A stretch of 64,000 nucleotides of DNA, from the NCBI RefSeq assembly GCF_900167535.1, contig NZ_FUYE01000005.1, forward strand, positions 62,001 to 126,000, read 5' to 3'. Position 1 is the stretch's first letter; the number at the start of each line of letters is the position of its first letter. This document shows positions 12,213 through 35,683 of this stretch, in pieces. The notes under the pieces are model-generated. The model was given only the letters and a program-made list of their open reading frames with translations, was not told the DNA's origin and did no database searches. The stretch comes from Prosthecobacter debontii (lineage in GTDB: Bacteria > Verrucomicrobiota > Verrucomicrobiia > Verrucomicrobiales > Verrucomicrobiaceae). The translations under genes were made by a program, and so were the position numbers.

Positions 12213-12287
12213 GTTCAATACCATACGAAGGTTGGGATTTTCCGAGCCTGTCATAAACGCCATTCCAGGGCAATGACAATCAAGGAA

Positions 12288-12308
12288 GTTCTGTTACGGT
12301 AACAGAAC
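12288..12308. promoter_or_regulatory. 21-bp palindrome upstream of the FAD oxidoreductase, candidate operator
   Basis: GTTCTGTTAC (12288-12297) and GTAACAGAAC (12299-12308) are exact reverse complements around one base. The core TGTTAC-GTAACA looks like LacI-family (GntR-type) operators. It sits upstream of the minus-strand FAD oxidoreductase gene and just past the stop of the lipoprotein gene. A hairpin terminator role is less likely, as the tail after it is only weakly T-rich. Confidence 0.5.
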
Positions 12309-12342
12309 ATCTTCCTTCGAAATAGAAGAAACCCACGGTGGA

Positions 12343-32436: not shown

Positions 32437-33663
32437 ATGCTCAAAAAGGTCACGATTACCAACGTCAATACCGGACACAAAAGTGTGTCTCTGGTGGATA
32501 CCGACACGCATGAAAAAGCCCTGATCGGTTCAGGCATCGCACCGAATGAAACGGCGGCGATCGAGGATATCACTGGTGCGGATGAAAAGATTCAGAGACT
32601 GACTTCGCCCAAGGGGGGCACGGAGGATTGCGGAGCTTTCTTTTCGGGCTTGGGGCGATGCTTGGAGCGAAACATCAGCATGACCAAGAGTCTCAAGCTC
32701 CAGGTCAATCGCGTGACCTCGGCTCGCTATAAAGGGATGATCGCTGAGGTGATCTATGCCATTTCCATGGGGGAGAAGTTTAGTGATGCGATGTCTCGCT
32801 TCCGCGACTTGTTTTCAGAGGACATCCTCTCCCTGATCGTCGCTGGTGAGGAAGCTGGTCAGCTCGCACGCGTGTGCAAGCGTATCGGGGTAGCGAAGAA
32901 AAAATCGTCTAAGACATTGAAGAAGCTCAAGGGAGCGCTCATTTACCCGGCAGTCGTCGTCGTTTTAGGGGTGGTTGTCGTGATCGTCATGAGCTTCACG
33001 CTCGTGCCTGCCATGTCAAAGCTGTTCACCAGCTTCAATACTGAGTTGCCCTTTGCCACCAAAGCCCTAATCGCTCTTTCCGATCTCTTTCTGCATAAGC
33101 CTTACATGGCCGCTGCTCCGCTTTTGGGACTCTACATTATGTTCTCCAATTTCGGCAAAATCATGTCCCTGAAGTGGGTGCAGGATTTGGTGCTCAAGAT
33201 TCCCGTGGTGGGGCTTTTGGTGCGTAAATCCGCTGCTGCTTCTGGCTTCCGCACCATGGCCATGCTAACGGAGTCCAATGTGCGTCTTACCAGTGCTCTG
33301 GAAATTACCTCAGCGGCCACCTGGCACTATCATTACAAGGAGTTTTTCAATCGTTTGCGCGATCATATCAGCGTCGGCCGCACCTTGCATGAAGGTTTCC
33401 TGATGGAATCGCATTGGCTCGGCTCGGATGGGCGTAACTTGTGTGGTTTGATCGAGCTGGCTTCTGAAACGGGTTCCGGCACAGAGATGCTTTCGGAGAT
33501 TGCCGACGATTACGAAGAGGAGCTGGATAACATGGCTGCCTCTCTCGATAAACTGATCGAGCCTCTGACGATGCTGATCCTCGGTGTCATGGTGGGCTTC
33601 CTGATCTATGCGATCTATGGTCCGATGTTCAGCCTCGGCGACGTGATTCTGAAGAAGAAATAA
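32437..33663 (+). CDS. PilC/GspF-type pilus platform protein
   Basis: A 408-residue inner membrane protein. A unique N-terminal region of about 55 residues leads into the two GspF domains (about 65-190 and 265-395): LGRCLERNISMTKSLKLQ, FSEDILSLIVAGEEAGQLARV and SLDKLIEPLTMLILGVMVGFLIYAIY. Three hydrophobic stretches lie near residues 165-190, 215-235 and 375-395. It would form the membrane platform turned by the PilT-like motor. It is the last gene of the operon; no clear terminator follows. Confidence 0.9.
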   Translation: MLKKVTITNVNTGHKSVSLVDTDTHEKALIGSGIAPNETAAIEDITGADEKIQRLTSPKGGTEDCGAFFSGLGRCLERNISMTKSLKLQVNRVTSARYKGMIAEVIYAISMGEKFSDAMSRFRDLFSEDILSLIVAGEEAGQLARVCKRIGVAKKKSSKTLKKLKGALIYPAVVVVLGVVVVIVMSFTLVPAMSKLFTSFNTELPFATKALIALSDLFLHKPYMAAAPLLGLYIMFSNFGKIMSLKWVQDLVLKIPVVGLLVRKSAAASGFRTMAMLTESNVRLTSALEITSAATWHYHYKEFFNRLRDHISVGRTLHEGFLMESHWLGSDGRNLCGLIELASETGSGTEMLSEIADDYEEELDNMAASLDKLIEPLTMLILGVMVGFLIYAIYGPMFSLGDVILKKK

Positions 33664-33690
33664 GTTGGACTTGAAAAAACGGCGGCTCGG

Positions 33691-33722
33691 TAAATCATGT
33701 GTTCATGAGAACACATGATTTA
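33691..33722. promoter_or_regulatory. LexA operator within a 32-bp perfect inverted repeat
   Basis: TAAATCATGTGTTC (33691-33704) and GAACACATGATTTA (33709-33722) are exact reverse complements with spacer ATGA. The central 14 bp, 33700-33713, are TGTTC-N4-GAACA, the palindromic LexA motif I recall as reported for Verrucomicrobia (tested on the Verrucomicrobium spinosum recA promoter). It overlaps the 5' end of the radical SAM gene. Regulation by LexA is inferred from the sequence match. Confidence 0.8.
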
Positions 33723-33725
33723 CCC

Positions 33726-34769
33726 GTGAATCGTCCGCATGGCCGAGGAGCATTCGGGAATACGGAACAGCGGTTCTCGGCGCTCCAGATGAGTTATGAT
33801 CCGGGAGAGGAACCGGAAAAGGTCGCCACCAAGTTTTTCCGCGATCACTCCAGCAGCATCATCAGTCACCACAAGAGCCCCGACTTACCGTTCGAGGCCA
33901 GTTTGAATCCCTATCGAGGGTGCGAGCATGGTTGCGCTTATTGTTATGCAAGGCCGACTCATGAATGGTTGGGGTGGTCGGCTGGTGTGGATTTCGAGTC
34001 GCGTATCTTGGTGAAGATGGATGCTCCGGCTTTGCTGCGGCAGGAACTGGCGCGAGACAAATACACACCGGAGCGGCTGTCGCTAAGTGGTGTGACGGAT
34101 TGTTATCAACCTGCTGAAAAGCGGCTGCAAATCACCCGCGGATGCCTAGCCGTGCTGGCGGAGTGTCGGCATCCGGTGGTGATGATCACGAAGAATCACC
34201 TCATCACGCGGGACATGGATCATCTATCGGAACTTGCCCGGCATCAGGCCACGTCGGTTTACATCTCCGTCACTTCACTGGATGCTGATCTCGCACGTAA
34301 GCTGGAACCGCGGGCTTCGTCGCCCAAGATGCGCTTGGAGGCGATCCGTGCCTTGGCAGGGCAGGGGATACCTGTGGGAGTATCCGTGGCACCGATCATT
34401 CCCGGCCTCAATGACAGCGAGATCCCAGCTATTCTGCAGGCAGCCAAGGATGCCGGGGCCATGTTTGCAGGCTACACCGTGGTTCGCCTGCCTTTCAGTG
34501 TGAAGGATGTCTTCGCCGCATGGTTGCAGGAGCATTTTCCCGGGATGAAGGACAAGGTTCTCAACCGCATTGAGGAAACTCAAGGTCGCACGCTTTCGCA
34601 CCCTGAGTTTGGGAAACGGCTGAAAGGGGTAGGAGTCTGGTCGCAGCAGATCGAACAGATCTTTAAGGTCTCCTTGAAGCGTGAGGGACTGCTGCATCGT
34701 CGGGCCGAGGTGACCGATGCGAATTTTCGTCGGCCTCGGGAGATTGGTGGGCAGATGGAGTTGTGGTGA
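33726..34769 (+). CDS. PA0069-family radical SAM protein, predicted SOS-regulated
   Basis: About 347 residues. Radical SAM enzymes split S-adenosylmethionine with a [4Fe-4S] cluster held by CxxxCxxC; here CEHGCAYC is Cys66, Cys70 and Cys73. HGRGAFGNTEQRF at the start, LNPYRGCEHGCAYCYARP, SGVTDCYQPAE and SVAPIIPGLND are typical of the PA0069 (Rv2578c-like) family, distantly related to spore photoproduct lyase. The reaction is unknown. A LexA-type operator lies directly upstream, so a role in DNA damage response is likely. I use GTG 33726, which puts the operator just before the start; ATG 33705 or GTG 33699 are also in frame and would put it inside the coding region. Confidence 0.87.
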   Translation: MNRPHGRGAFGNTEQRFSALQMSYDPGEEPEKVATKFFRDHSSSIISHHKSPDLPFEASLNPYRGCEHGCAYCYARPTHEWLGWSAGVDFESRILVKMDAPALLRQELARDKYTPERLSLSGVTDCYQPAEKRLQITRGCLAVLAECRHPVVMITKNHLITRDMDHLSELARHQATSVYISVTSLDADLARKLEPRASSPKMRLEAIRALAGQGIPVGVSVAPIIPGLNDSEIPAILQAAKDAGAMFAGYTVVRLPFSVKDVFAAWLQEHFPGMKDKVLNRIEETQGRTLSHPEFGKRLKGVGVWSQQIEQIFKVSLKREGLLHRRAEVTDANFRRPREIGGQMELW

Positions 34770-35609: not shown

Positions 35610-35617
35610 ACGAAAAA

Positions 35618-35651
35618 CAAAAAGGACGACTGGAGGGCAGTCGTCCTTTTG
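35618..35651. terminator. Bidirectional intrinsic terminator
   Basis: GGACGACTG (35624-35632) and CAGTCGTCC (35638-35646) form a 9-bp stem with A-rich sequence before and TTTTGTTTT after, so it works for both convergent genes. Confidence 0.92.
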
Positions 35652-35683
35652 TTTTGATTTAGAGGCCTAACAAGAGGCGGGGC

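Follow-up and report, generated by a model that had tools for sequence, protein, structure and literature searches.

A palindrome that overlaps the start of a PA0069-family radical SAM gene in Prosthecobacter debontii is, with a probability of about 0.88 as judged from the sequence, a LexA operator that places this gene under SOS control. The window, by which we mean the whole 64-kb stretch of DNA that was analysed (G000:C5:62001-126000), belongs to a genome of 6.29 Mb in 56 contigs, and it contains an inverted repeat at 33689-33724 with 16-nt arms that are 100% complementary and separated by a 4-nt spacer (Table 1). When spacers of 0-11 nt are tried, 16 bp is the longest perfect arm in the window. 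The perfect 14-bp TGTTC-N4-GAACA centre that had been claimed in an earlier note on this DNA was found at 33700-33713, where it is the sole perfect occurrence in the window, with 0.045 expected per 64 kb given the base composition; one further site carries 1 mismatch. The same note described a symmetry with 14-bp arms at 33691-33722, and this palindrome is real, but its arms measure 16 bp and the span was thus 2 bp short on each side. The note's view of the long symmetry as an extension of the LexA motif stands for the core, which matches, but not for the arms, which lie outside the motif and are not kept by the relatives that keep the core. The right half-site is partly coding (M-R-T).

Table 1. 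Features at and around the predicted operator, in window coordinates.
Feature	Position	Strand	Remarks
Predicted -35 element, TTGAAA	33671..33676	+	promoter scan
Extended perfect palindrome, left arm, GGTAAATCATGTGTTC	33689..33704	+	16 nt, 100% complementary; apparent species-specific extension
Predicted -10 element, AATCAT	33693..33698	+	promoter scan; within the left arm
Predicted LexA operator core, TGTTC-ATGA-GAACA, TGTTCATGAGAACA	33700..33713	.	perfect motif match
Radical SAM protein of the PA0069 family, 354 aa when started at the ATG	33705..34769	+	NF033668
Right arm, GAACACATGATTTACC	33709..33724	+	overlaps radical SAM codons 2-7
CxxxCxxC iron-sulfur cluster motif codons (C73, C77, C80)	33921..33944	+	invariant in 122/122 sequences

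A dispersed repeat was rejected, as the left-arm sequence occurs exactly only here, in both arms, and the other 32 genome matches listed carry 2-3 mismatches. Elsewhere in the window, an inverted repeat at 35615-35655 (AAACAAAAAGGACGACTG/CAGTCGTCCTTTTGTTTT) reads as a terminator on either strand, and a 13-bp inverted repeat with 92% complementarity and a 1-nt centre lies at 12285-12311 (GAAGTTCTGTTAC/GTAACAGAACATC).

TGTTC-N4-GAACA is said, in work by Erill and colleagues from 2016, to be the LexA operator of Verrucomicrobia. The P. debontii genome has one S24 peptidase match, which is LexA (TIGR00498, 154.4 bits at a cut-off of 110.95), and one RecA match (TIGR02012, 500.1 bits). That lexA and recA of this genome should carry the same motif had been put forward as a check, and the check came out in favour: a perfect site is located just upstream of both the sole lexA found (locus L005, TGTTCGGGCGAACA) and the sole recA found (L007, TGTTCGCCAGAACA). 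The operator at the radical SAM gene therefore resembles the reported one in its 14-bp motif, shared with P. debontii lexA and recA, and differs from it in overlapping the start codon of its target and in its perfect 16-bp arms, which are absent in the five closest relatives. Across the genus, sites outnumber those of a reversed control in 46 of 48 genomes (276 vs 35 in total), the exceptions being G018 and G027, and a perfect box is present upstream of lexA in 25 of the 30 loci fetched. The five misses are L215 and L189-L192, the latter from genomes with a further lexA match. L189-L192 are LexA-like genes of the genus members G020, G042, G033 and G038, and the TGTTC box is absent from the upstream stretch checked.

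The P. debontii genome holds 12 perfect sites compared to 4.4 expected (Poisson P 0.002) and one occurrence of the reversed pattern, and since this enrichment is only moderate, a part of these 12 is probably due to chance. Family searches of the genes beside these sites covered all of them except L001 and L004. One site lies ahead of two neighbouring genes; the first is without a family match, and the second carries a Y-family polymerase domain (IMS) and is ImuB-like by its place. Another, located between phoH and a 7TMR-HD (HDIG) gene, has perfect arms of 15 bp (L010:1501-1514; G000:C21:45659-45672); all five of the close relatives that were checked have its core at about the same place (perfect in four, 1 mismatch in the fifth) and lack the long arms, and it may be an SOS target that ties DNA damage to an HD-domain signalling phosphodiesterase. 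A further perfect LexA-type site (L012:1501-1514) is located upstream of a small ORF and a gene resembling a type I restriction R-subunit, and could reflect either SOS-controlled restriction or a chance match.

The six closest species (82-100% protein identity, P. debontii included) all have the operator at the same place, four with a perfect match and two with one mismatch. In their alignment, 12 operator columns are invariant, including TGTTCATG and AACA, in DNA that has otherwise diverged on both flanks and shows only scattered identities upstream. Two of the relatives have 12-bp arms with one mismatch, as counted by eye, and the arms of the others are shorter. The core thus looks to be under selection and the arms look recent, and the 16-bp arms are best seen as a putative species-specific elaboration that would be dispensable for recognition by LexA. 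Arm length reaches 15-16 bp at two of the 12 genome sites and 9 bp at two others, and the close relatives checked for the long-armed sites L003 and L010, which are unrelated loci, retain the core and not the arms. Our guess is that the long arms were produced by quasi-palindrome correction during replication.

This pattern also bears on other readings of the palindrome. With the ATG in its loop and a predicted 61-nt RNA fold of -30 kcal/mol (z -6.5 vs shuffles), the repeat might act as a translational switch, in which an RNA hairpin masks or frees the start codon and the likeness to a LexA box is incidental. We regard this as very improbable, because the long hairpin is not conserved and relatives keep the 14-bp core without the arms, because lexA and recA bear the same core upstream with arms of only 5 bp, and because a leaderless transcript would exclude the left arm altogether. 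Slightly less credible still is a chance match of the core, favoured by what the first codons (ATG AGA ACA) must encode. The six species with the site do have R/Q-T at codons 2-3, and 7 of 24 site-less relatives begin with M-Q-T or M-K-T. However, the site-bearing species spell these codons AGA ACA or CAA ACA, whereas five of the seven site-less starts use CAG ACG or AAG ACG, one CAG ACA and one AAG ACT, and such a difference in codon spelling between the two groups is what one would see if the site-bearing group were constrained at the level of the DNA word. Furthermore, the left half TGTTC lies upstream of the ATG and is invariant in 6/6 species amid divergent DNA, and the box is found elsewhere upstream in other lineages. 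The weakest alternative, a terminator or other hairpin of the upstream gene, is suggested by a long perfect stem 25 nt past the end of the upstream ORF (stop at 33663), but the stem is followed by CGTGAATCG without a T run, it is absent from the terminator scan, and relatives keep the core without the long stem.

The LexA operator that remains the preferred reading is closely joined to the start of its presumed target. The gene had been assigned to the PA0069 family with the site at its start, and both points held up: scanned from GTG 33699, the ORF matches NF033668 (rSAM_PA0069), a model that names no reaction, with 437.7 bits at a cut-off of 360, and ATG 33705 sits within the operator spacer, so that the palindrome overlaps the gene start. 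The candidate starts are GTG 33699, ATG 33705 and GTG 33726. In all six closest species this ATG is the only in-frame ATG ahead of the conserved GRGA motif; as alternatives, an in-frame GTG is present 6 nt before the ATG in 5/6 species, also within the palindrome region, and later in-frame TTG or GTG codons occur in some of the six. The promoter scan yields a match, TTGAAA-16-AATCAT, that ends 6 nt upstream of the ATG. Taken alone the scan is weak (2 matches in an 8-kb region vs a shuffle mean of 3.1); a TTG is found 34-35 nt upstream of the ATG in 6/6 closest species. Two of the six, L024 and L025, show a loose Shine-Dalgarno pattern, which the remaining four lack. The position of the predicted -10 element would set the transcription start at about ATG 33705 and yield a leaderless mRNA, and since the only ATG lies in the operator spacer, a leaderless transcript that is blocked by LexA is predicted. 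On balance we favour, with some reserve, a radical SAM mRNA that is leaderless and starts at the ATG. The overlap of operator and start codon would amount to a compact promoter design.

The family was then followed across the Verrucomicrobiota. NF033668 genes above the cut-off are present in 24 of 193 genomes that were drawn from the phylum and are at least 90% complete, and of the 68 genomes covered by the family search, 45 had a PA0069 match; its upstream DNA set leaves aside G021 (N-terminus missing), G032 (a 31-residue piece) and weak second matches in G019 and G022. Pooling and deduplication resulted in 65 loci, of which the genus of the window contributes 32, without L091-L096, which are under the NF033668 cut-off, and without L081, L083 and L084, the genomes of which are already counted. 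A box with 0-1 mismatch is located within 300 nt in 20 of the 65 loci (11 perfect, 9 with one mismatch), a count of mutually related loci and not of independent events, and relative to the base that aligns with 33726, these boxes lie at -16 to -105. The controls gave 0/65 for the reversed pattern at 0-1 mismatch and 0/152 for the box in in-gene windows. The remaining 45 loci are without a box at 0-1 mismatch, and 24 of the 30 fetched same-family loci (69-82% identical) have no such site in the 0.5-1.5 kb upstream that was covered. The LexA motif is retained in the genus notwithstanding these site-less members, and, as far as the DNA letters tell, the link of the box to the PA0069 gene is lost, or was never gained, in much of the genus. 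In a genome of another family (G232), the PA0069 gene at L067 has two tandem boxes upstream, TGTTCGAACGAACA and TGTTCATGTGAACC, which are 31 nt apart.

The LexA box of alphaproteobacteria is GTTC-N7-GTTC, and that of beta- and gammaproteobacteria is CTGT-N8-ACAG. PA0069 itself is reportedly LexA-regulated in Pseudomonas aeruginosa, according to work by Cirz and colleagues from 2006. Among the best 80 of the 598 PA0069-family matches listed, which are related loci with classes assigned by hand from the record titles, GTTC-N7-GTTC is found upstream of 26/27 alphaproteobacterial and 1/50 beta- and gammaproteobacterial loci, while CTGT-N8-ACAG is found upstream of 30/50 beta- and gammaproteobacterial loci (beta 9/13, gamma 21/37) and 0/27 alphaproteobacterial ones; three loci without a class have the CTGT box in one case. 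The reversed motifs occur upstream in 1/80 and 0/80 of these best 80 loci. In 396 control windows placed inside and behind the gene, the GTTC box occurs once and the CTGT box never, and the reversed alpha motif and the reversed CTGT motif occur 9 times and once, respectively. A single gene family that carries three unrelated LexA words is hard to account for other than by a role in the damage response, and the class-matched boxes, which span four bacterial groups and three motifs, independently support its membership in the DNA-damage response.

Within the same best 80 of 598 matches, the box of the class is missing in 16/37 gamma, 4/13 beta and 1/27 alpha loci. The LexA motif of Xanthomonadaceae is TTAGTA-N4-TACTAA, and a search that allowed 0-2 mismatches did not find it in any of the 16 gamma loci that lack the CTGT box; none of the boxes tried is present at the PA0069 loci of Xanthomonadaceae. 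Two gamma loci that were counted as box-less have near-boxes, L138 with one mismatch and L168 with CTGT-N6-ACAG, which is two bases shorter. Loci on plasmid records were sampled as 12 of 28 matches, picked by hand to spread the genera and including near-duplicate pairs in Azospirillum brasilense and Sinorhizobium; in this set, 9 of 11 alphaproteobacterial loci have a perfect box, one has a box with one mismatch and one is without, and the single Aeromonas locus is perfect.

Spore photoproduct lyase (SPL) uses a cysteine, C140 in the solved enzyme, as its H-atom donor. A distant kinship of the radical SAM protein to SPL had been asserted, and it is apparent at the level of the fold but not by sequence. 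A structure model was built on 17 sequences (mean pLDDT 80.7, pTM 0.83), and with this model Foldseek places six SPL entries first (E 3.1e-9 to 3.8e-8, TM 0.53-0.57). VIA-align likewise ranks six SPL entries at the top, with Z 18.9-19.4 over 271-279 residues compared to 15.1 for the next match, and the best whole-chain structural match is among SPL (PDB 4fhc and relatives; Z 19.4 over 276 residues). However, the identity of SPL to the PA0069-family model is only 14-16%, and the SPL chains were not reached by a sequence profile search (E 0.68-1.2). C140 mutants are named among the SPL structure entries matched. Besides C73, C77 and C80, no cysteine column is invariant in the 122 sequences (121 loci and the window, with the N-terminally cut L100 and most of L029-L066 left out), the next highest column having a cysteine in 38/122. 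C140 of SPL is thus without a conserved cysteine counterpart in these 122 PA0069-family relatives, in a comparison of columns and not of superposed positions. As only the three cluster cysteines are invariant, the chemistry may differ from that of SPL. The protein probably works like an SPL-group radical enzyme and is not to be filed as SPL, and we lean, with some reserve, towards a DNA lesion as its substrate. The SPL-like fold indicates what kind of chemistry to seek, and a family of unknown reaction thereby gains a specific assay.

In the mechanism that we infer, LexA would bind TGTTC-N4-GAACA over the -10/start region and the start codon, which would block transcription. Upon DNA damage, RecA filaments would form and promote the self-cleavage of LexA, and the promoter would be freed. 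The mRNA would then begin, probably without a leader, at or beside the ATG in the operator spacer, and its product, a radical SAM enzyme that resembles SPL in its overall fold, would most likely reverse or process a DNA lesion via a 5'-deoxyadenosyl radical. A wider proposal, which we consider tentative and would not bet on, is that the PA0069 family is a core light-independent, SOS-induced system of direct-reversal repair in non-sporulators, with the SPL fold and a different H donor, hence a different lesion or route, and that in one verrucomicrobial lineage the start codon became part of the LexA operator, which would make the footprint of the repressor coincide with the start of the leaderless message.

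SOS regulation of splB is predicted in alpha- and betaproteobacteria in a passage of PMC3323433, and that of COG1533 in Bacteroidetes in a passage of PMC8565304, which also cites the Verrucomicrobia LexA paper among those showing SOS regulation of COG1533 in several species; a passage of PMC3765255 places SplB-like proteins in SOS neighbourhoods. Since SOS control of COG1533/splB has been published, the regulatory claim made here is not new in kind. The genes described in these passages (PMC3323433, PMC8565304) resemble ours as SPL-group radical SAM genes with LexA boxes of divergent motifs, and differ in that the passages cover splB/COG1533 generally, whereas the present genes are of the NF033668 type, in Verrucomicrobiota and several gammaproteobacterial genera. 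We infer that the published splB belongs to the same subfamily as the NF033668-type genes. A literature search on PA0069 alone returned titles that do not concern SOS. The present analysis adds three points: the tie to NF033668-type genes, for which the controls were class-matched, a start codon located within the operator, and the lack of any conserved donor cysteine.

The P. debontii genome has a second repair-like radical SAM gene with a LexA-type box, which is perfect and has 9-bp arms (L006:1501-1514; G000:C7:148328-148341). This gene belongs to rSAM_link_UDG (TIGR03916, putative DNA modification/repair radical SAM protein), and it resembles the PA0069-family gene of the same genome in being a radical SAM gene with a perfect box, but it represents another family, with 575 bits to TIGR03916 and no NF033668 match.
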